From: an uncultured Flavobacteriales bacterium
GTDB taxonomy: Bacteria; Bacteroidota; Bacteroidia; Flavobacteriales_D; Crocinitomicaceae
DNA length: 34,684 nt
Direction of reading: 5' to 3'
Assembly: GCA_913056215.1 (NCBI GenBank)
Contig: CAJXMN010000020.1
Span: 1-34,684 of the forward strand
In this document: positions 1,805-14,324 of the stretch, in pieces
Numbering within the stretch: position 1 is the first letter of the stretch
How the letters are laid out: every line of letters starts with the position of its first letter
The notes under the pieces: generated by a model
Seen by the model: the letters and a program-made list of their open reading frames with translations, nothing else
The model's database searches: none
Told to the model about the DNA's origin: nothing
Position numbers and translations under genes: made by a program

Positions 1805-2209
1805 TCAGTCAGGTAATTGTGAAAAGAATTCATTTACAAAAGGTTTTTTAGATTTGGTAATATTATCAGAATAAAAATTTATGAGTAACCCTTGAGGTTT
1901 TTTCAATATCTTCATATACGTTAATAATTGAGCTTCATGAACGGGAAGAATGGTTTCTACAGCTTTCAATTCTACTACAATAGTCTCATTTACTAATAAA
2001 TCAACTCTTAAATTAACGTCCATTTCTAATAAGTCATAAATGACTGGAACGACCATTTGTTGTTTAACTTCAAATCCATTTTTAATAAGTTCGTATTTTA
2101 AACACTGCTCATAGACACTTTCTAATAACCCCGGACCAAGTTCTTTGTGAACTTTAATGGCACAGCCAACAATCTCATAGGATAACTGAGTAACTTCTTT
2201 TTTCGTCAA
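1805..2209 (-). CDS. GxxExxY-family protein (PD-(D/E)xK nuclease-like)
   Basis: This 134-residue protein carries the family signature GLLESVY at residues 27-33, following VHKELGPG. A PD-(D/E)xK-like core follows, with Asp70 in LRVDLL and Glu80-x-Lys82 in VVELKAV, and then HEAQLLTYM at 91-99. The length is near that of the family (about 125-135 residues). The family (Pfam PDDEXK_3) is placed by fold in the nuclease superfamily, but its biological role is not established. The start is an ATG at 2207-2209 with no better upstream choice. The gene stands alone, is visibly A+T-rich, and is surrounded by related short repeats on both sides, which suggests insertion as a unit. Activity on nucleic acid is an inference from the motif only. 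Confidence 0.85.
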   Translation of the reverse strand: MTKKEVTQLSYEIVGCAIKVHKELGPGLLESVYEQCLKYELIKNGFEVKQQMVVPVIYDLLEMDVNLRVDLLVNETIVVELKAVETILPVHEAQLLTYMKILKKPQGLLINFYSDNITKSKKPFVNEFFSQLPD

Positions 2210-2549: not shown

Positions 2550-3263
2550 TTGAAACGAATTTCTAAGATAGCATTACTTGTTTTTGTGCGCGAAGCGCGT
2601 CAGGAAGCTCGGTTAAAACCTATCTTTAGCGGTGACGATTCCAGAAATGAGCAGTTGTTCACCTTTCTCAACAAACGAATCATCAATGAGGCCAAAGCCA
2701 GTTCCTTTGAATATTTTGTAATCAGCACCAAAGATCAGGTTGGTCAGGATTTTGCCGATCGATTCAAAAATGCTTTCAAATCTATTTTTGAACTGGGGTA
2801 CGATGCGGTCATCAGTGTGGGTAACGATGTTCCTCAAGTCAATAGAAAAACGATCGCTTCTGTACACGATGCATTTGCAGAACACGATGTAGTCATTGGT
2901 AAAACAACTAGTAATGGAGCATATACCCTGGGATTAACCAAATATGCCTTTTCTAAATGCGACTTTGACGCCGTCGACTGGAGTTCAAAAAATGTCGTTC
3001 GTTCAATAGAAGACCGTGCTGAAGTTCAAGGAAGTACTTACCGACAACTTGATGAAATCTATTATGAGATCAACTCTCACGATGACCTAACCGTTTTTAT
3101 TGAATGTGTCGCTCATTGCCAGTTCACGTTTCATGGAGTGCTTTTCTTAATTGGTCTGTATTACAATAAACACCAACAAATTGATCATCAGAAACGAATT
3201 CAATCATTTTTTCATTCTACTTCATTTGAAATTAGAGGATCGCCCTGTTTGTTTTTAACATAA
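2550..3263 (+). CDS. DUF2064 / TIGR04282-family glycosyltransferase-like protein
   Basis: This 237-residue protein has the pattern of the DUF2064 family, a nucleotidyl/glycosyl-transferase fold originally named rSAM/selenodomain-associated transferase 1. The N-terminus is SKIALLVFV (residues 5-13). The core is LGYDAVISVGNDVPQVN (82-98), whose GND is the counterpart of the family's G-x-D metal/sugar-nucleotide site. DVVIGKTTSNGAYTLGL (113-129) stands in place of the usual GPaxDGGYYLiGL. The start is the TTG at 2550: an in-frame TAA lies 18 bases upstream at 2532-2534 and no ATG intervenes. It is the first gene of a tight plus-strand operon, 37 bases before susC. The donor and acceptor are unknown. 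Database names linking this family to arsenosugars need an arsS gene nearby, and none is in the window. Confidence 0.7.
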   Translation: MKRISKIALLVFVREARQEARLKPIFSGDDSRNEQLFTFLNKRIINEAKASSFEYFVISTKDQVGQDFADRFKNAFKSIFELGYDAVISVGNDVPQVNRKTIASVHDAFAEHDVVIGKTTSNGAYTLGLTKYAFSKCDFDAVDWSSKNVVRSIEDRAEVQGSTYRQLDEIYYEINSHDDLTVFIECVAHCQFTFHGVLFLIGLYYNKHQQIDHQKRIQSFFHSTSFEIRGSPCLFLT

Positions 3264-3300
3264 AGCAAATAAATCAAGGTTTTACTCTAAATTATGAAAA

Positions 3301-6300
3301 ATGAAAATAGCTATTACGGCCCTATTTTGTGCGGTCGCGATGATTACGTTGTCTCAAAAGACAATTGAAGGAAAGGTGATGGATCAAAAAGAACAGCCCA
3401 TTCCTTTCGCAAAAGTTAAAATTATTGGAAAAAATCAAGGTACCACAACAAAAGAAGATGGTGGTTTCGAATTGAAGGTCAACTCGAACGATTCCCTGCG
3501 GTTTTCAGCAGCGGGTTTTGAATCCAAAACGATCCCCGTATCGGGAGAAACAGAATGGACAATTACTCTACCGTCGTCCATCAATGAATTGGACGAAGTA
3601 GTTGTTACAGCGCTCGGTCTCAAAAGGAACAAAAGAGATTTGGGATATGCTGTTCAAACGCTCGAGGGAAAGGAGATCACAGAGGTGCGACATCCGAACC
3701 TCGTTAATTCCCTAGCAGGAAGAGTAGCTGGTGTGCAAACGACCAATGGCTCCTCAGGAGTTGGCTCTTCTTCGCGTGTCATCATTCGTGGAGAAACATC
3801 GCTATCTGGAAACAATCAACCCTTGTTTGTTGTAGACGGAGTTCCTGTCAGTAATGAATTCATTGCCAACGATACGGAAAATCTCGAATCAGGATTCCAT
3901 GAGGTCGATTACGGAAATGGTATGGGTGATTTCAGTTCCGATGATATCCAATCTATATCTGTTTTGAAAGGACCCAGTGCAGCAGCATTATACGGGTCTC
4001 GAGCTGCTGGAGGTGTGATCGTGATTGAAACGAAAGAAGGTCAGCGAACGGACGGTGTTGGAATCAGTGTAAACTCCAGTGTTACCATGGAACAGATTGC
4101 TTTCCTGCCCGAATTTCAAAATGTGTATGGACAAGGATCCGGCGGACAATTCGCTTATGAAGATGGACTGGGCGGTGGTACTAACGACGGAGGACTGGTC
4201 AGTTTTGGCCCCCAAATGAACGGTCAGTTGATTACTCAATATGACGGACCTTCTTTTGATCAAGATGGTAACCCCGTTCGCGGTGGCGACGTCATAGCGC
4301 GACAGGGAAATCCGATTACGCCGACGCCTTGGACAGCAAATCCGGATAATGTTCGCAACTTTTTTGAAACGGGAGTTACAAGTCAGCACAACATTGCTTT
4401 TTCTGGTGCCAATGATGATGGAAGTTTCAGATTATCTTACACGCGAATGGACCACGAAGGAACAATTCCGAACACAGATTATCGAAGAAATAACTTGTCT
4501 TTCACTGGTACGTATGATTTATCAGAACGATTATCTATTCGGGCATTTGGAACATTCATTAACTCCAACTCAGATCACCGGCCCGGATTGGGGTATGGAA
4601 GTGAAAATGTGATGTATTCATTCTTATGGATGGGGCGACAGGTAAATCTGGATGCTGCAGAAAATTATTGGCAGGCAGGACGTGAAGGATTTCAACAGTT
4701 CAATTACAACACGCAATGGCTCGACAACCCGTTCTTCAATGTTTTTGAAAACAGAAACGGTTTCAATAAGAATCGACTCCTTGGAAATGCCGTATTGAGC
4801 TACAAGATCTCCGAAAACTGGAAACTTCGGTTTCGTTCTGGTGTAGATACATACACAGATTTGCGTACTTCGAGAAGAGCATTCAGTACGCAACGGTTTC
4901 CGAACGGAGCATATCGGGAAGACGATGTGGCTTTTACGGAGATCAACACGGATCTTCTGCTATCCTATGACAAAAAAATCAGCGAAAAATGGAATTTCAA
5001 TGCAGCGCTGGGGGCAAACAATTTTACGCAAGAGACACGCTACAAAAGTTTAACAGCAGGTCAACTCTCTGTTCCTGGAATTTACAATTTTGAAAATTCA
5101 AAAGTAGCCCTTGAAGCTTCTCAGTATAATTCACAGCGACAGATCAATTCAGTCTACGGACTTTCAGGAATTAATTTTGATCGATTCCTGTTTTTAGATG
5201 TTACCTTGAGAAATGACTGGTCGACAACGCTTCCGGTAGAGAACAATTCATTTGCCTATTACTCAGTAAATGGGGCAATCGTTTTTAGTGAAAAACTCAA
5301 TCTTCCCGAGTGGTTCAATTATGGAAAATTGCGATTAAACAGTTCCAGTGTTGGAGCCGATACTGATCCTTTCCAGTTGCGAAACACGTATCAATTCAAT
5401 CAGAATTATGGCAGTTATCCCTTGTTGACGAATAGCAGTAAATTGTTGAATCAGAATTTGCGTCCGGAACGGATCAACGGTTTGGAAACTGGTTTAGAAA
5501 TGTACTTCTTTCAGGAGCGTTTAGGACTAGATGTGACCGTTTATCAAAATACGGCAAAAAATCAGATTATTTCGCTACCGACGTCATCAGCGAGTGGCTA
5601 TTCAAGTCAGATTGTGAATGGCGGAGTTATCCAAAGTCGCGGTATCGAAATCATGCTCACCGGAGATGTGATTCGCGGTGAAGACTTCAAGTGGACAGCT
5701 TTTGCCAACTTTAGTAAAGGGGCAAGTTATGTACAGGAATTACCCGAAGGTATTGATCAATATACTACGGGTTTTGCGCGCTTATACACCACTGCTGAAA
5801 ACACGATCTTTTACATTGCCAACGCTCAAAAAGGCGGTCGTGTAGGAGATATGTACGGAACAGGTTTTCAGGAAACGGAAGACGGTCGTATTATTTATGG
5901 GGACAATGGTTTGCCGCTGAGAGATAATGAACTGCGTTATCTCGGAAACTACAATCCTGACTTCATTCTTGGATTGGGTAATACGTTTGAGTATAAAGGA
6001 TTTGAGCTCAATATTTTACTCGACTGGAGACAAGGAGGCGTTGTCGTTTCGCGAACACGAGCTGTTGGTTCTACCTCTGGGGTATTGTCTGAAACGCTTG
6101 AAGGTCGGGAAGATGGAATTGTCGGAGACGGCGTTGTAAATGTCGGAACCGAAGAAAACCCCGTTTATGAAGAGAATACAACTTCGGTTTCAGCTGCGGA
6201 GTATTACAATCAATTCTACAATCGCGCCAATGAAGAAAGTTCTACTTATGATGCTTCCTACGTTAAGATTCGGCAGATCGGACTAACGTATACTTTCCCG

Positions 6301-6498
6301 GATAAGTGGACTAAAAAAATGGGAGTTCAGGATTTCAAGATCGGCTTTATTGCCCGCAATCTATTTACGTGGACAGAAAATCCACATTTCGATCCTGAAT
6401 TGAGTGCGATGCAAGGTACTTCACAGGTATTTGGTGTAGAAGACCTTTCCTATCCATCAACGAGAAGTTTTGGAATGAATATTCAATTTAATTTTTAG
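3301..6498 (+). CDS. susC: SusC/RagA-family TonB-linked outer-membrane transporter
   Basis: This 1065-residue outer-membrane active transporter has a signal peptide at residues 1-19 (ending ITLSQ). It is followed by a carboxypeptidase-D regulatory-like beta domain (about 22-95, TIEGKVMDQKEQPIPFAKV) typical of Bacteroidota SusC proteins. A plug domain (about 100-250) contains NSLAGRVAGVQTTNG, the VIIRGETSLSGNNQPLFVVD region and the GPSAAALYGSRAAGGVIVIE signature. The rest is a beta-barrel ending in FGMNIQFNF with the usual terminal aromatic residue. The length is normal for the family. The susD gene follows after only 4 bases. SusC forms the TonB-powered pore under a SusD lid and imports oligomers or other large nutrients. 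The substrate cannot be read from sequence. No glycoside hydrolase is nearby, so a polysaccharide is not indicated. Confidence 0.95.
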   Translation: MKIAITALFCAVAMITLSQKTIEGKVMDQKEQPIPFAKVKIIGKNQGTTTKEDGGFELKVNSNDSLRFSAAGFESKTIPVSGETEWTITLPSSINELDEVVVTALGLKRNKRDLGYAVQTLEGKEITEVRHPNLVNSLAGRVAGVQTTNGSSGVGSSSRVIIRGETSLSGNNQPLFVVDGVPVSNEFIANDTENLESGFHEVDYGNGMGDFSSDDIQSISVLKGPSAAALYGSRAAGGVIVIETKEGQRTDGVGISVNSSVTMEQIAFLPEFQNVYGQGSGGQFAYEDGLGGGTNDGGLVSFGPQMNGQLITQYDGPSFDQDGNPVRGGDVIARQGNPITPTPWTANPDNVRNFFETGVTSQHNIAFSGANDDGSFRLSYTRMDHEGTIPNTDYRRNNLSFTGTYDLSERLSIRAFGTFINSNSDHRPGLGYGSENVMYSFLWMGRQVNLDAAENYWQAGREGFQQFNYNTQWLDNPFFNVFENRNGFNKNRLLGNAVLSYKISENWKLRFRSGVDTYTDLRTSRRAFSTQRFPNGAYREDDVAFTEINTDLLLSYDKKISEKWNFNAALGANNFTQETRYKSLTAGQLSVPGIYNFENSKVALEASQYNSQRQINSVYGLSGINFDRFLFLDVTLRNDWSTTLPVENNSFAYYSVNGAIVFSEKLNLPEWFNYGKLRLNSSSVGADTDPFQLRNTYQFNQNYGSYPLLTNSSKLLNQNLRPERINGLETGLEMYFFQERLGLDVTVYQNTAKNQIISLPTSSASGYSSQIVNGGVIQSRGIEIMLTGDVIRGEDFKWTAFANFSKGASYVQELPEGIDQYTTGFARLYTTAENTIFYIANAQKGGRVGDMYGTGFQETEDGRIIYGDNGLPLRDNELRYLGNYNPDFILGLGNTFEYKGFELNILLDWRQGGVVVSRTRAVGSTSGVLSETLEGREDGIVGDGVVNVGTEENPVYEENTTSVSAAEYYNQFYNRANEESSTYDASYVKIRQIGLTYTFPDKWTKKMGVQDFKIGFIARNLFTWTENPHFDPELSAMQGTSQVFGVEDLSYPSTRSFGMNIQFNF

Positions 6499-6502
6499 AA
6501 TC

Positions 6503-7918
6503 ATGAGAAATTTAATAATAATAGTACTCGTAGCAAGCGCTTTGTTCAGTTGTAAAAAATTCGATAAAGCCAATATCAATCAAAACGCTCCGGAGGAGGT
6601 GAATCCGCAATTTTTATTGTCGAATGTTCTCGCCGAAGGAGCAGACAATCAAGCATACTGGGGATGGCACGCAGGAAATCTATTGTCTCAACATGCGGCA
6701 AACCTGGAATTTTTACCTGTAGACCGTTATAACCTGGGGTCAAACGAAGGACTTTGGACAGAGACCTATCGGTTGATGAAGGATCTGCAAGATGTAAAAA
6801 ACAGCGAAGAGGGAAATAGAGCTTACGATGCAGTAGCCGATATTCTCACGGCACATCAGGCGAGTTTGGTTACCGATTTGTGGACAAATGTTCCCTTTTA
6901 TGAGTCCCTGGAAGCAGAAGAGGGGAATTTCACTCCCATTTTTGATGAACAAGAAGCAATTTATACGGGAGAAGGTGGAATCCTCGATCTTTTAAGCGCT
7001 GCCGTAGAAACGCTCGAAAACACACAAGAGACTATCGAGGGCGATTTGATGTATCAGGGAAATCTGAATAAGTGGATTAAATTTGCCAATAGCTTGCGCG
7101 TTCGATATTTGGTACGGATCAGTGATCAAGTGAACGTTTCAACGGAATTGCAACAGATCATCGACGATGGGAATATTTTCCAGGATGTAAATGATGAAGC
7201 TGTGGTACCTTATTTATCGGCATCTCCCAATCAATGGGTGATTTTCACTGAAAGAGAAGGTCGATACGTAGACGTTCGTATGAGTAAAACAGCAGAAGAC
7301 ATTTTAACTCCACTCAATGATCCGCGCATGGAACATTATTACAAACCAACAGCAAATTCCTCTGGTGGAACTGAAGTTTACCTCGGGATACCCAACGGAC
7401 TGAGTCGCGAAAGTCAGAACAGCTACGATTTGGGTGATGTTTCATTGATGGGGTCGTATTTACGAGATGAGCCCGATGGAGTGAAAGCCGCTTTCATGAC
7501 TTACGCAGAGCTGCAGTTCTGTTTAGCAGAAGCAGCACAAAAAGGGCTCATTTCAGGAAATGTATCCACTTATTATGAAGCGGGAATTCAAGGTTCTTTT
7601 GATCATTTGGGATTGACGCTCCCTGCGGGGTATTTATCTCAGCCAAATGTTATATTAGACGGATCAAATGATTTGGAACGGATCGTGACACAAAAATGGA
7701 TTGCCTCATTTATGAATGGATACGAAGCCTGGTTTGATTTTAGGAGAACGGGATATCCCGATCTGCCCCTACCCCAGGACAACTTAAACAATGATGTTTT
7801 CCCCGTGCGTTATGCATATCCTTCCACAGAACAAGCAGTAAACGGATCGAATTATTCTGACGCCGTAAATGCCATAGGAGGAGATGACTACAACAGCCCG
7901 GGTTGGTGGGAAAATTAG
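6503..7918 (+). CDS. susD: SusD/RagB-family surface lipoprotein
   Basis: This 471-residue SusD-like substrate-binding lid has a lipoprotein signal ending in the lipobox LFSC, with Cys17 as the lipidation site. The following KK and acidic residues resemble a surface export context. Features of the SusD-like group include NVLAEGADNQAYWGWHAGN near residue 41, YDAVADILTAHQASLVTDLW near 108-127, and the C-terminal GYEAWFDFRRTGYPDL. The SusD start is 4 bases after susC, and the stop at 7916-7918 touches the symporter start. Alone it would capture ligand at the surface and close over the SusC barrel. The predicted partner is the SusC at 3301-6498. The substrate is unknown. Confidence 0.93.
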   Translation: MRNLIIIVLVASALFSCKKFDKANINQNAPEEVNPQFLLSNVLAEGADNQAYWGWHAGNLLSQHAANLEFLPVDRYNLGSNEGLWTETYRLMKDLQDVKNSEEGNRAYDAVADILTAHQASLVTDLWTNVPFYESLEAEEGNFTPIFDEQEAIYTGEGGILDLLSAAVETLENTQETIEGDLMYQGNLNKWIKFANSLRVRYLVRISDQVNVSTELQQIIDDGNIFQDVNDEAVVPYLSASPNQWVIFTEREGRYVDVRMSKTAEDILTPLNDPRMEHYYKPTANSSGGTEVYLGIPNGLSRESQNSYDLGDVSLMGSYLRDEPDGVKAAFMTYAELQFCLAEAAQKGLISGNVSTYYEAGIQGSFDHLGLTLPAGYLSQPNVILDGSNDLERIVTQKWIASFMNGYEAWFDFRRTGYPDLPLPQDNLNNDVFPVRYAYPSTEQAVNGSNYSDAVNAIGGDDYNSPGWWEN

Positions 7919-9270
7919 TGGAAAATATCACATTTTGGCAATGGGTGCTCGTCATTGGGACGAGTGCCCTGCTTATTATACTGTCTCCATTGGCGAAAAC
8001 GGCGGGTCAATTCTTTACTGCCAAACGCAAAGGAAGAACACCCAATTTTTGGATGCTCAGTGGAAGTCTGATTATCTCCTGGGTCTTTGCCAAGTCAATC
8101 GCCAATGCATCCGAACTTGGGTTTGAGTATGGAATTACGGGTGGACTGGCTTATACCTCGTACTATGCATCATTTCTCGTTGCGGGTGTGATTATCTACC
8201 GCATGCGAGTGGTCGGTGGAGTAAAGAGTATTCATACCTTCCTTGGTGACAAGTTTGGTCAACGCGCCTTACAATTATTCTCAATCGTAATCGCGATTCG
8301 ATTGTTCAACGAAGTGTGGTCAAATACGATGGTTATTGGATCCTATTTTGGAGACCATGGAACAGGTAGCTATTATAGTGCCATATTGATATTTACTGCA
8401 CTTACACTGGTCTATTCACTAAAAGGCGGATTGAGTAGCTCAATTTTCTCAGACATTATACAAATGGCACTATTTGGTATACTTCTGGTAGCAATTTTGT
8501 GGTTATTCAACGACCAGCAAGAGCAAAAAATAGAAGCCGTAATGCAGCAGGGTCGTTTCTCATTTGATAGTGGTTTGAATTTGATCATTGTCGGCCTAAT
8601 TCATAGTTTTTCTTACCCATTTCACGATCCGGTAATGACCGATCGAGGGTTCATTAGTTCACCCAGAACAACTTTGTGGAGTTTTATCGTAGCTGGAATC
8701 ATTGGTGGAGCTTTGATCTTTTTATTCAGTCTGGTGGGTGTGTTCGGAAAATTAAATGGTGCACCGTCCAGTGAATTATCGAAGTTTGGAGAACTCTTTG
8801 GTCCAATTATGTTGTTATTGATCAATTTTATCATGATTGTTTCAGCCGCATCAACTTTAGATTCTTCATTTTCTTCAGCATCCAAACTATTGGCTGTTGA
8901 CCTCAAAAGAGGAGCCACGTTAAAAGTAGGACGATGGTCTATGATTGTATTTGCCGTTGCAGGTACGATTCCATTATTTTTCAATCCAGCCATCTTATCT
9001 GCAACCACAATTAGCGGAGTCATGGTGATTGGATTAACACCTGTTTTCTTGTTTTGGAAACAAAAAGCACCCAGGTTGAGTTATTTCTTGAGTGTATTTG
9101 TAGGCATTAGCTTTGGAATATTACTTGCATTGGATGCTATTCCTAAGCCTCTGTTGCTCTTTAAAGGGCCTTACAGTGATTTACTCTCGACAACCTTAGT
9201 GGCGCTCGTACTCGTATTTATTGTATATTTTATTCCAGTCGGCTATCAAAAATGGAAATATGGAAAATAA
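7918..9270 (+). CDS. Sodium/solute symporter (SSS) family transporter
   Basis: This is a polytopic inner-membrane protein of about 450 residues with roughly a dozen hydrophobic segments. The SSS-family helix motif AASTLDSSFSSASKLLAVDL lies about 120 residues from the C-terminus, and LVYSLKGGLSSSIFSDIIQM matches another conserved stretch. Members couple sodium entry to uptake of sugars, amino acids or other small solutes. No ATG precedes the first helix. A GTG at 7918 shares a base with the susD stop (TAGTG), and a TTG at 7903 is the longer alternative. I prefer GTG because it gives MENITFWQW directly before the first helix. The stop overlaps the start of the next gene. As part of the SusCD operon, it likely carries the SusCD cargo, or its breakdown product, across the inner membrane. 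Confidence 0.88.
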   Translation: MENITFWQWVLVIGTSALLIILSPLAKTAGQFFTAKRKGRTPNFWMLSGSLIISWVFAKSIANASELGFEYGITGGLAYTSYYASFLVAGVIIYRMRVVGGVKSIHTFLGDKFGQRALQLFSIVIAIRLFNEVWSNTMVIGSYFGDHGTGSYYSAILIFTALTLVYSLKGGLSSSIFSDIIQMALFGILLVAILWLFNDQQEQKIEAVMQQGRFSFDSGLNLIIVGLIHSFSYPFHDPVMTDRGFISSPRTTLWSFIVAGIIGGALIFLFSLVGVFGKLNGAPSSELSKFGELFGPIMLLLINFIMIVSAASTLDSSFSSASKLLAVDLKRGATLKVGRWSMIVFAVAGTIPLFFNPAILSATTISGVMVIGLTPVFLFWKQKAPRLSYFLSVFVGISFGILLALDAIPKPLLLFKGPYSDLLSTTLVALVLVFIVYFIPVGYQKWKYGK

Positions 9271-10069
9271 CAAGTATTTATTCTTAGGAGGAACGTACAG
9301 TAATTTGCACGCGCTTCAGCAAATCAAAGTGGAAGCAGAACAAATGGGAATTACTCCCGATCGCATCTTTCATACTGGAGACGTGGTTGGATATTGCGCT
9401 TTTCCAGAGGAAACAATCAATTTAGTCAGGTCCTGGGGAATTAACGTTATCGCTGGAAATGTTGAAGTGCAGCTCAGAGAAGGAGCATCCGATTGTGGCT
9501 GTAATTTTGAAGAAGGATCGCGCTGTGCGGATTTCTCGACATTGTGGTATCCCTATGCGCAAACGCAGGTGAGTCAGAAAAACATAGATTGGATGCACGC
9601 GCTGCCAACACATCAAATTGCTGATATTGCTGGTAAAAAATGGGGATTTATTCACGGAGGCCTGGATGATATTTCGCAGTTTTTTTTTGCTTCAACACCC
9701 TGGCGAGAAAAACGACAAATTTTCGATCGATTGCATGCCGAAGTTATCGTTGCTGGTCACTGCGGACTTCCCTTTATTGAACAAAAAGAAGCAAAAACCT
9801 GGATCAACCCCGGTGTGTTAGGAATGCCCGCAAATGATGGTACACAGCGCGTTTGGTATGGTGTATTTGATGCAGATACGGACTTATTTGAACTCAAATC
9901 TCTGAATTACGATGCGAAGTCAGCCAGTGAAGCTATGTATCATCAACAACTTCCAGAACAATATGCTAAAACGCTCGTCACGGGTTTGTGGGACAATTGC
10001 GAGATCCTGCCAGCTGAGGAAACCGCACAGCAAAATAGCGCATTAGAAGAAAAGCGGGTTTTGATTTAA
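9260..10069 (+). CDS. Metallophosphoesterase-like protein with altered metal site and Cys cluster
   Basis: This 269-residue protein has the calcineurin-like/YfcE phosphoesterase layout. The ATG at 9260 begins MENNKYLFLGG, directly before the first beta strand, and overlaps the symporter stop by 11 bases; the longer frame from 9221 adds symporter-overlapping sequence with no counterpart. Recognisable elements are the first strand and loop at 7-18, HTGDVVGYC (38-46), GNVE (66-69), IHGG (131-134), AGHCGLP (166-171) and WINPGVLGMP (181-190). Compared with canonical motifs, the first D-x-H reads G11-T12-Y13, GNHD/E reads GNVE, and GHxH reads GHCG. A cysteine cluster, DCGC at 78-81 plus Cys89, is inserted after the third motif, with Cys46 and Cys168 near the site. 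A phosphatase or phosphodiesterase acting on the imported compound is plausible but unproven, and a different metal or a non-catalytic role is possible. Confidence 0.75.
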   Translation: MENNKYLFLGGTYSNLHALQQIKVEAEQMGITPDRIFHTGDVVGYCAFPEETINLVRSWGINVIAGNVEVQLREGASDCGCNFEEGSRCADFSTLWYPYAQTQVSQKNIDWMHALPTHQIADIAGKKWGFIHGGLDDISQFFFASTPWREKRQIFDRLHAEVIVAGHCGLPFIEQKEAKTWINPGVLGMPANDGTQRVWYGVFDADTDLFELKSLNYDAKSASEAMYHQQLPEQYAKTLVTGLWDNCEILPAEETAQQNSALEEKRVLI

Positions 10070-10335: not shown

Positions 10336-11487
10336 ATGACGGTAGAAAGAAGCATAAAGTTTAAAATAGAAAAGTTTAAAAATAAGTATCCGATATTGGC
10401 GATTACTGGACCGCGACAATCAGGCAAAACAACATTGTTAAAAGAACTTTTCCCACAATATACTTATATAAGTTTGGAGAATCCTGATAACTTTGATTTT
10501 GCCTCTTCAGACCCAAGAGCCTTTTTAGAAATGTACAATGACCAGGTTATTCTGGATGAAGTACAAAAAACACCTGAATTATTTTCTTACTTGCAATCTA
10601 TCGTTGATGAATCCGGGAAAATGGGGCAGTACATTTTGTCAGGATCTCAGAATTTTCTTTTGATGAAAAGCATTACACAAAGTCTTGCAGGTAGGGTCAT
10701 TTTGTTCAAATTACTTCCTTTCGATTTTAGTGAATTACAATCTGCCGGCTGGCTTCCTGAGACTTATGAAGACTTATGTTTGAAAGGAAGCTACCCATCC
10801 ATATATGATAGAAATATTCCAAATGATGTTTTCTATAATAACTATATACAAACTTATGTGGAACGCGATGTTTCTGAAATACTGAATATCCATGACTTAG
10901 CACAATTCAGAAAGTTCTTAATGCTTTGTGCAACTCGAGCTGGACAATTATTAAACTTAAGTGTACTTGCAAAAAAAGCGGGGATCACACAGCCTACGGC
11001 AAAATCATGGCTATCGGTTTTAGAGAGTAGTTATATCACATTTCTTTTGCAACCCTATTATGAAAATTTCAGCAAAAGAATAGTAAAAACGCCAAAACTT
11101 TATTTTTACGATACGGGGTTGTTAACGCATTTGTTGAAAATAAAAAATAGCGATCAACTCGCAAAACACCAGCTCAAAGGTGCGTTATTTGAAAACCTTA
11201 TCATCTCTGAAAAATTTAAACAAAACCACCATCATTACTTAATGGAAGATTACTGGTTTTGGAGAGATAGTAATCATAAAGAAATCGATTTAATCGTTGA
11301 GCAAGCGGACAAATTTGACATTTACGAAATAAAATCGACCACCACGATTACCCAAAAACTATTTGAGAATTTAAATTATTTTTCAGCGGTGGCTTCAAGA
11401 ACTGTAAAAAATAAGTTCTTGATTTATGGAGGACATCAAAATCAAAAAAGAAGCAGCGCAGAAGTTTTATCTTGGAAAGATTGTTAG
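10336..11487 (+). CDS. AAA-family ATPase with DUF4143 domain
   Basis: This 383-residue protein is of the AAA_14/DUF4143 type. The N-terminal ATPase has Walker A GPRQSGKTT (residues 25-33) and Walker B VILDEVQ (71-77), followed by YILSGSQNFLLM with a sensor-like Ser/Gln/Asn. The C-terminal part contains a winged-helix-like segment (LSVLAKKAGITQPTAKSWL) and the DUF4143 region, with GALFENLI and EIDLIVEQ...IYEIKST. The latter is a PD-(D/E)xK-like arrangement seen across the family. Members are widespread, often scattered in accessory DNA, and their cellular job is not defined. The gene stands alone with its own promoter region. It is visibly richer in A+T than the neighbouring operon, consistent with later acquisition. 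The length is normal, and no frameshift was seen. Confidence 0.9.
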   Translation: MTVERSIKFKIEKFKNKYPILAITGPRQSGKTTLLKELFPQYTYISLENPDNFDFASSDPRAFLEMYNDQVILDEVQKTPELFSYLQSIVDESGKMGQYILSGSQNFLLMKSITQSLAGRVILFKLLPFDFSELQSAGWLPETYEDLCLKGSYPSIYDRNIPNDVFYNNYIQTYVERDVSEILNIHDLAQFRKFLMLCATRAGQLLNLSVLAKKAGITQPTAKSWLSVLESSYITFLLQPYYENFSKRIVKTPKLYFYDTGLLTHLLKIKNSDQLAKHQLKGALFENLIISEKFKQNHHHYLMEDYWFWRDSNHKEIDLIVEQADKFDIYEIKSTTTITQKLFENLNYFSAVASRTVKNKFLIYGGHQNQKRSSAEVLSWKDC

Positions 11488-11803
11488 TTATTAAGGCTGG
11501 TCATTCAATAGGATCGAACAATTTTGATTGAATCACTCAAGATCCTCAAATTCACAAATAGAAGTTGTATAGATTGCCAAGTTGAAACGATCCAGCAATG
11601 AAAAAGACAATTTCGAAATTCACTTCATCAGCATCAAAATAATTCAACATTTCTGTTCCTTCTTCATTAGGTATTGTTCCCTGATGCACGGATATTATAT
11701 GGATCAAACTATTTTATAAAATAGTATTTATCAATAATGAATAGATATGTTTATCGTAAATGAACACTCTTTAAAACTTAATTGAATTTTTCAGTTTTAA
11801 ATA
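11488..11803. other. 316-bp gap; one weak minus-strand reading frame, nothing firm
   Basis: The gap lies between the convergent ATPase and peroxiredoxin genes and is A+T-rich. The only notable item is a minus-strand frame from a GTG at 11689 to a TGA at 11552 (45 residues, including MLNYFDADEVNFEIVFFIAG). It is amphipathic and protein-like in composition but matches no family I recognise. It may be the end of a decayed gene or chance. No clear terminator hairpin was found. Confidence 0.4.
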
Positions 11804-13064: not shown

Positions 13065-14324
13065 TCATTTAAATGCACTCTTACGTCTCAGGAAATAATC
13101 AACAAACTTCACCGAATTCCCCTCACCACATTTCATGCGCACATAGATAATCCCGGCTGAGACGAAGGTTAAAATACCAATAAAGACAATCGAAGCAATT
13201 GTACCAAATGAATCGGCGATAATCCCAGTTAAAATTGCACCTACAGCATATCCCAGATCTCTCCACAAACGAAAGATACCAATACTTTTTGCACGGTCTT
13301 GCGGGTGGGTGTTTTCCGCTACAGTCGCCAAGAATGTAGGATAAACCATCGCTGTACCCCAACCTAAAATACCTGCTAATATCACAAAGTGGGTCATGGA
13401 TGTCGCCCAAATAAAGAAAATCAGCGCAACAGCTTGTAACAACATACCAGTAAATAACATGTCTTTTTTGCAAAACTTATCTGCCATCTTGCCTGTAAAC
13501 AACTGACCTATACCCCAAACACCAGGGTAAACCGCTACAATAATCCCAATCTGATCGAGGTTAAAATTTCTACTCGCCAAAAGCATCGGAAAAATCCCCC
13601 AGGCCATACCATCATTCAAATTGTTAATCAACCCGGCTTGTGAAACCGATCCTAAGTTTTTGTTCTTCCAGGTGGTATCCCAAAAGATGTTTTTAAGTTT
13701 TGGAATCGTGTTGTTTGTTGCTTCAGCCGCCACATGCCCGCGCGTATCTTTAATGAAGAAAATACTCATCGCCAATCCTAAGATGACCAATCCAATTCCG
13801 AGGTAAAACGGGTACGGACGAATCCCATACTCACTAGCGATATACCCCGTGAGGAATGCAAATATTGCCACTGCTATATAACCCGCAAACTCATTCAGTC
13901 CCATAGCAAAACCACGCTGTTTTTCGCCCACCAAATCAATTTTCATCACTACAGTTGAGGACCAAGCCAAACCTTGATTAATACCGAGCAATACATTGGC
14001 TGCAATAATCCAATTCCAACTTGAAGCATACATCAAGATTAATGGAATGGGAATAGCAACCAACCAACCGACGACCAATAAGTTTTTTCGGCCAAATTTG
14101 TTGGCCAGAGCGCCAGTGTAGTAATTGGTGACAGCTTTAACAATTCCAAAAACGATAATAAAAGAAAGAATGGCTGTTTTAGCGGCAATGCCAAATTCAC
14201 CTTCAGCTATTTGTGGTAAAATCGAACGTTCTAAGCCTACCATTCCACCCACAAAGGCGTTGACAATTACTAAAAGTGTAAATTGTTTCCAGTTTTCTTT
14301 TAATCCCAATTTAATTTGATCCAT
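13065..14324 (-). CDS. Major facilitator superfamily transporter
   Basis: This 419-residue inner-membrane protein has about 12 hydrophobic segments in two halves. The MFS loop 2-3 signature appears as GALANKFGRKNLLVVGW (about residues 72-88), and a weaker counterpart, GKMADKFCKKDMLFTG, sits in the second half. Loop residues between the halves (about 195-225) are polar and charged. The family moves small solutes or drugs by proton coupling, and the substrate here is unknown. The ATG at 14324 gives a short cytoplasmic N-terminus before helix 1. The decayed Crp/Fnr regulator lies 156 bases upstream on the same strand and may once have controlled this gene, but that is conjecture. There are no same-strand genes close enough for an operon. 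Confidence 0.9.
   Translation of the reverse strand: MDQIKLGLKENWKQFTLLVIVNAFVGGMVGLERSILPQIAEGEFGIAAKTAILSFIIVFGIVKAVTNYYTGALANKFGRKNLLVVGWLVAIPIPLILMYASSWNWIIAANVLLGINQGLAWSSTVVMKIDLVGEKQRGFAMGLNEFAGYIAVAIFAFLTGYIASEYGIRPYPFYLGIGLVILGLAMSIFFIKDTRGHVAAEATNNTIPKLKNIFWDTTWKNKNLGSVSQAGLINNLNDGMAWGIFPMLLASRNFNLDQIGIIVAVYPGVWGIGQLFTGKMADKFCKKDMLFTGMLLQAVALIFFIWATSMTHFVILAGILGWGTAMVYPTFLATVAENTHPQDRAKSIGIFRLWRDLGYAVGAILTGIIADSFGTIASIVFIGILTFVSAGIIYVRMKCGEGNSVKFVDYFLRRKSAFK

Follow-up and report, generated by a model that had tools for sequence, protein, structure and literature searches.

A conserved SusCD and sodium symporter operon of Bacteroidota that accompanies ArsS, and its possible part in arsenic uptake

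Gene content of the block

This work deals with a block of five plus-strand open reading frames (ORFs) at positions 2550-10069 of a 34,684-nt stretch of DNA, hereafter the window, which belongs to contig CAJXMN010000020.1 of assembly GCA_913056215.1, an uncultured Flavobacteriales bacterium (Crocinitomicaceae) with a genome of 192 contigs and 3.2 Mb. Among the genomes sampled, the block occurred only in those that also carry the arsenosugar biosynthesis enzyme ArsS, and we tentatively read it as an importer of an arsenical. An earlier note on the same DNA had proposed that one compound is imported across both membranes and then cleaved or modified; the uptake module proved to be conserved, and the cleavage of a phosphoester found no support. 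The genes are the following:

2550-3263, plus strand: gene 1, a diverged DUF2064/TIGR04282 paralog (GT-A nucleotidyl/glycosyltransferase-like), possibly non-catalytic, with a C-terminal RGSP tail; TTG start; PF09837, E 1.3e-15
3301-6498, plus strand: gene 2, a SusC-type TonB-dependent outer-membrane transporter; TIGR04056, 596 bits; TIGR04057 above cut-off
6503-7918, plus strand: gene 3, a SusD-like outer-membrane lipoprotein (SusD-like_2); PF12771, 308 bits
7903-9270, plus strand: gene 4, a Na+/solute symporter (SSS family); SSF, weak at 26 bits
9221-10069 (ORF; start at 9260), plus strand: gene 5, the last gene, a cysteine-loop protein with a calcineurin-phosphoesterase fold; Metallophos_2, 46 bits

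An ORF check bore out the layout given earlier, with intergenic gaps of 37 and 4 nt and two overlaps, and the five genes likely share one transcript. Genes 3 and 4 overlap by 16 nt, and alignment places the conserved gene 5 start at the ATG at 9260, which leaves an overlap of 11 nt with gene 4. In a consensus scan, promoter-like sites (19 vs 17.8 in shuffled sequence) and terminator-like sites (9 vs 6.9) appeared at about the shuffled rate. Near its N-terminus the SusD-like protein has, by eye, a lipobox-like LFSC, and the stretch SYPFHDxVxTDR of the symporter is invariant in all 34 aligned copies. Genes 2 and 3 form the SusC/SusD pair expected of a polysaccharide utilisation locus (PUL), but a family search detected no carbohydrate-active enzyme (CAZyme) among the five genes, so that a polysaccharide locus was rejected and the earlier view of a single conserved uptake module free of such enzymes was upheld.

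Conservation of the block

Genomes were sampled from the order (249) and from the phylum (316), the window's own genome being counted in both. A search with the last protein matched 17 of the 249 order genomes; 14 of these, own genome included, carry clear orthologs (44-100% identity), and the other three matches were weak (24-29%). Since the last gene was also present in 7 of the 316 phylum genomes (again including the own), 20 genomes were found with it in all. A scan of genome contigs with the single protein returned no relative, whereas a profile scan of public genomes gave at least 580 matching stretches, obtained with two patterns, so that some loci may be counted twice. The best 80 loci were kept, presumably mostly from Bacteroidota by their record titles, and 74 of them, together with the window and 13 order relatives, form a set of 88 non-redundant loci, picked by similarity to the last gene and with gene labels taken from the best BLASTP match.

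The earlier note had suggested searching for co-occurrence of the five families, and this search supported it. The SSS gene lies directly upstream of the last gene in 84 of the 88 loci. Among the 79 loci with at least 7.5 kb of upstream sequence, SusC, SusD, SSS and the last gene are contiguous in 71, and a DUF2064-type gene stands in front of the block in 62. This order is far beyond chance, and the five-gene block is a real, conserved and importer-like unit. The eight exceptions to contiguity comprise one locus with two inserted genes (L026), one with an extra ORF call (L062), one in which no SusD was called (L076), four without SusC and SusD directly upstream (L027, L077, L086 and L111) and one with none of the partners (L090). 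In L026, from Lishizhenia, the insertion at 8169-9607 between symporter and last gene encodes a GNAT acetyltransferase and a protein that matched no family.

Association with ArsS and arsenosugar genes

ArsS is a radical SAM enzyme that adenosylates arsenic, according to PMC12159101. All 20 genomes with the last gene carry ArsS (TIGR04167), and all 20 also have TIGR04283 above cut-off. In the order sample 14 of 14 last-gene genomes are ArsS-positive, with ArsS in 81 of the 249 genomes overall (hypergeometric p 6.5e-8, uncorrected for relatedness), and in the phylum draw the corresponding figures are 7 of 7, own genome included, and 128 of 316. The converse fails, as the block is absent from 67 of the 81 order and 121 of the 128 phylum genomes with ArsS.

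A search for linked arsS-like radical SAM genes, which the earlier note had also proposed, was positive at the level of loci. In the 62 loci with full flanks, ArsS was found beside the block in 41, nucleoside phosphorylase in 39, ArsO in 37, TIGR04283 in 23 and ArsM in 17, and 43 loci have at least one of ArsS, ArsO, ArsM or TIGR04283. These labels are best BLASTP matches to Cochleicola genes, with identities of 57-100% for ArsS, 66-100% for ArsO and 86-100% for ArsM, and the Cochleicola reference copy of ArsS passes the family cut-off. In Cochleicola itself (L053) the block is embedded in an arsenosugar cluster (ArsS, TIGR04167, 436 bits; ArsO, TIGR04169; ArsM, NF038099, 574 bits), in the order ArsO, ArsS, gene 1, SusC, SusD, SSS, last gene, rhodanese, TIGR04282, purine nucleoside phosphorylase, ArsM, OlsE-like, DUF547-like and TIGR04283, where the OlsE-like protein is below cut-off and the DUF547-like label comes from BLAST to a Roseomonas gene annotated as DUF547. 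Many Flavobacteriaceae repeat this arrangement, with the block inside a cluster running from ArsO and ArsS to nucleoside phosphorylase, in some cases ArsM, and TIGR04283. The arsenosugar biosynthesis cluster (ArsM, ArsS, ArsO, TIGR04282 and TIGR04283) contains the five genes in many members of this family, whereas our literature searches returned no paper that assigns to it a cysteine-loop protein, a SusCD pair or any transporter. The window's genome has its ArsS on another contig (G000:C67:1524-2420, 450 bits), together with a rhodanese gene and a tail-less canonical TIGR04282-type (DUF2064) gene; TIGR04283 is on contig C8, an ArsM-like match below cut-off is on C4, and ArsO had no match in this genome. 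On the whole, the block accompanies genes of arsenosugar synthesis, and its context appears to be arsenosugar metabolism.

In addition, an in-frame fusion joins the last protein to ArsO in Cellulophaga tyrosinoxydans (L072) and in a Maribacter metagenome-assembled genome (L103), the fused tail being 80-83% identical to ArsO, and in two sampled genomes (G424 and G550) the ArsO match falls within the last protein's own open frame of 414-415 codons. The fusion occurs in four loci, in two families as coded in the genome sample. These fusions and the occurrence in ArsS genomes only are the strongest links of the block to arsenic chemistry.

The cysteine-loop protein and the DUF2064 paralog

The phosphoesterase fold that the earlier note assigned to the last protein was confirmed by an AlphaFold model (calcineurin phosphoesterase fold, pLDDT 94.2), and Foldseek placed it nearest to 3rqz (E 9e-17), with 1nnw and the Ap4A hydrolase 3qfm also matched; the metal-binding and catalytic residues are altered. 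Motif I, SDxHGN, has become GGxYSN in 15 of 15 and 53 of 53 aligned sequences, with loss of the Asp and His metal ligands; GNH[DE] reads GNVE in all 53, with loss of the catalytic His; and GHxH reads GHxG in both sets (15/15 and 53/53), with loss of the last His. What is kept is the Asp of GDxxGY, together with the Asn of GN and two His. After the altered GNVE motif a loop CxCxFx5C has been gained, usually DCGCxFxEGSRC, whose three cysteines are invariant in the 53 sequences and correspond to C79, C81 and C89 of the window protein, numbered from the ATG at 9260; this region has the lowest block confidence in the model (65). Ordinary paralogs from the same order (L018 and L019) keep all motifs (SDIHGN) and have no cysteine loop. 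Compared with phosphoesterases of the SapH/YfcE type (3rqz, 3qfm, 1nnw), the last protein thus shares the fold and the Asp of GDxxGY, but differs in its altered DxH, GNH and GHxH motifs and in the extra loop.

The last protein is therefore probably not a phosphoesterase, and with several metal and catalytic residues lost, the cleavage of a phosphorylated compound that the earlier note had proposed is unsupported. In this protein the catalytic site of an enzyme fold has clearly been rebuilt. No signal peptide was seen by eye, and we take the protein to be cytosolic. VPS29, in which a phosphoesterase fold acts as binding scaffold and protein partner, would be a working analogy; it is among the fold matches, weaker than 3rqz, and presumably has no cysteine loop.

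Gene 1 does belong to the DUF2064 family, as claimed before, and its activity as a transferase is doubtful, since it scores 68.4 bits against TIGR04282, under the cut-off of 134, and its N-terminal part is unaligned with a solved relative: a profile of 41 gene-1 copies matches 3cgx, a solved putative nucleoside diphosphate-sugar transferase, over positions 61-198 of 232, and gave no significant match for the N-terminal part. In Cochleicola the gene-1 copy and the canonical paralog score 98.5 and 216.6 bits. A tail [KR][GA][SP]P is present in 67 of 67 gene-1 copies, at most about 20 and mostly 2-6 residues from the C-terminus, after a variable linker (3230-3263 in the window), whereas both canonical copies inspected (L034 and L020) lack it. 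Because the synonymous codons of the tail vary across the 67 copies, selection acts on the protein, and the idea that gene 1 ends in a nucleic-acid signal was rejected. The structural model has a confident core of alternating strands and helices and a tail of low confidence. Upstream of gene 1, at 2247-2415, lie two imperfect 83-nt direct repeats (73%) with inverted arms.

A counterpart operon in Roseomonas

A relative of the last protein with 40% identity, which has GNCE at the second motif and whose annotation says no more than metallophosphoesterase family protein, lies at the end of an operon on plasmid p546-1 of Roseomonas haemaphysalidis (L020, 3853-10813). This operon encodes TIGR04282 (above cut-off), DUF547, two radical SAM proteins, a PhnCDE-type importer and the cysteine-loop protein. 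The importer's binding protein is nearest to HtxB (E 2.7e-72), of the phosphite/hypophosphite class, which relates the operon to the reduced-phosphorus ABC importers HtxBCDE and PtxABC, whereas the examined Bacteroidota loci have SusCD and SSS in place of such an importer. At the HtxB pocket positions named in PMC5700983, reading of the alignment indicates that W52 is kept, N128 is replaced by S and F158 by H. With two of the three specificity positions different, dimethylarsinate as the Roseomonas ligand on the basis of HtxB likeness alone was dropped. The operon is possibly a locus for reduced phosphorus or for arsenic.

Possible function of the block

To our knowledge, why bacteria make arsenosugars and how arsenic enters the cell are open questions, and a literature search, carried out largely without subscription papers, returned nothing that links SusCD, SSS or the cysteine-loop protein to arsenosugars. 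Our favored reading, which we hold as quite possible though short of probable, is that the operon serves the arsenosugar pathway as its uptake branch and imports an arsenical. We infer that transport is inward: SusD would capture the arsenical at the cell surface, SusC would pull it across the outer membrane with TonB energy, and the SSS symporter would move it together with sodium into the cytosol. There it would be received by the cysteine-loop protein, whose phosphoesterase fold would have become that of a binding or redox partner, with trivalent arsenic bound to the three cysteines; this protein, in many species jointly with ArsO, would pass it on to ArsS and the enzymes that follow, while the DUF2064 paralog may act as a partner. 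A methylated arsenical would be the likeliest cargo and a ready-made algal arsenosugar the next. The related protein behind a different importer in Roseomonas is counted in favor of this reading.

The distribution of ArsM bears on the first of these cargoes. Among ArsS genomes of the same class, a dedicated ArsM (NF038099 above cut-off) is present in 3 of 20 with the block vs 44 of 83 without it (1/14 vs 29/67 in the order, 2/6 vs 15/16 in the rest of the class), and is thus rarer with the block (Cochran-Mantel-Haenszel p 0.0008, in a test that ignores phylogeny and is to that extent a point against the reading). Any ArsM-like match was found in 12/20 vs 70/83 (p 0.026). In eight block genomes, 98-100% complete, ArsS seems to occur with no methyltransferase at all, and import of a methylated arsenical would account for this. 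The phylum scan for ArsM covered 80 of the 128 ArsS genomes, and the 58 scanned outside the class have no block and a dedicated ArsM in 3. All this is a hint, no more, that the block can supply methylated arsenic.

Further observations also weigh against an arsenical cargo. The window itself has no arsenosugar gene beside the block, and 19 of the 62 full-flank loci, including relatives of the window's genus, are without ArsS, ArsO, ArsM or TIGR04283. ArsO is absent from 8 of the 20 last-gene genomes, among them all five examined of the window's genus. An ArsM-like match is also absent from 13 of the 83 ArsS genomes without the block, and since 17 of the 62 loci have ArsM close by (directly behind the last gene in 9), the block is no simple replacement for ArsM, and full replacement was rejected. 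Neither radical SAM gene of Roseomonas is ArsS (the higher score is 61 bits, with a cut-off of 300), and the mixed PtxB/HtxB pocket would fit three-oxygen anions better than dimethylarsinate.

A possible, though rather doubtful, alternative is that the block works in the arsenosugar pathway and imports a partner other than arsenic, such as an acceptor (a glycerol, lipid or sugar unit), a nucleoside or a compound of reduced or organic phosphorus, the cysteine-loop protein being zinc-stabilised or redox-active. SusCD and SSS systems usually carry organic solutes, among proteins of solved structure the SSS profile comes closest in sequence to the urea carrier DUR3, a choline carrier and the glucose carrier SGLT1, and the binding protein of the Roseomonas counterpart is of the phosphite/hypophosphite type. 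The ArsO fusions of the last protein and its occurrence in ArsS genomes only point instead to the arsenic steps, as does the smaller number of dedicated ArsM genes with the block.

It is unlikely that the block is an ordinary SusCD locus of the PUS type, which would scavenge phosphate by taking up a phosphoester and hydrolysing it and would be linked to ArsS ecologically, through phosphate starvation. Arsenolipids are said to spare phosphorus in PMC5552862, and Flavobacterium has PUS loci with SusCD and phosphatases, as described in PMC8115612. PULs and PUS loci do share with the block an outer-membrane SusC/SusD pair and accessory genes, but the block has neither a CAZyme nor an intact phosphatase: the phosphoesterase residues of the last protein are gone, and no further phosphatase family was matched among the five genes. 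Its SusD belongs to PF12771, whereas the two Flavobacterium johnsoniae PusD proteins named in that paper's passage belong to PF07980/PF14322. On the lost residues, the SusD family and the co-localisation and fusion with arsenosugar genes, this explanation was rejected. Salvage or breakdown of algal arsenosugars for carbon or ribose, with ArsS run only incidentally, would suit the hosts of many profile-scan loci, presumably marine by genus name, and a SusCD pair presumably suited to glycosides of such size, but is very unlikely, given that the constant partners ArsS and TIGR04283 are biosynthetic and that no glycosidase is among the five genes.

If, as favored here, the cargo of the operon is an arsenical, arsenic uptake by these cells is deliberate. 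A wider proposal, which we put forward as possible with less confidence, is that these Bacteroidota have a dedicated, energy-driven import of arsenicals in which the cysteine-loop pseudo-phosphoesterase serves as a cytosolic arsenic carrier or reductase feeding ArsS, a related carrier having been recruited in Roseomonas to a place behind an ABC importer of the phosphite type. Were such dedicated import true, arsenic would be a sought-after, nutrient-like element for these bacteria. With a widespread operon that was found only alongside ArsS and that codes for a full importer across both membranes, the question of arsenic entry becomes testable.

Other features of the window

No Rfam family matched at gathering score in the window, and an RNA element was rejected on that basis. 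The neighbours of the block are:

1805-2209, minus strand: a PD-(D/E)XK nuclease-superfamily protein (PF13366), beside the operon
10336-11487, plus strand: an AAA ATPase with DUF4143 (family match), directly after the operon
13065-14324, minus strand: a major facilitator superfamily (MFS) transporter, 3 kb from the block

In L026, the one other locus in which this link was seen, an MFS gene (10464-11672) immediately follows the last gene of the block, and its product is 65% identical to the MFS transporter of the window. The latter is a possible satellite of the block and may be an efflux partner.

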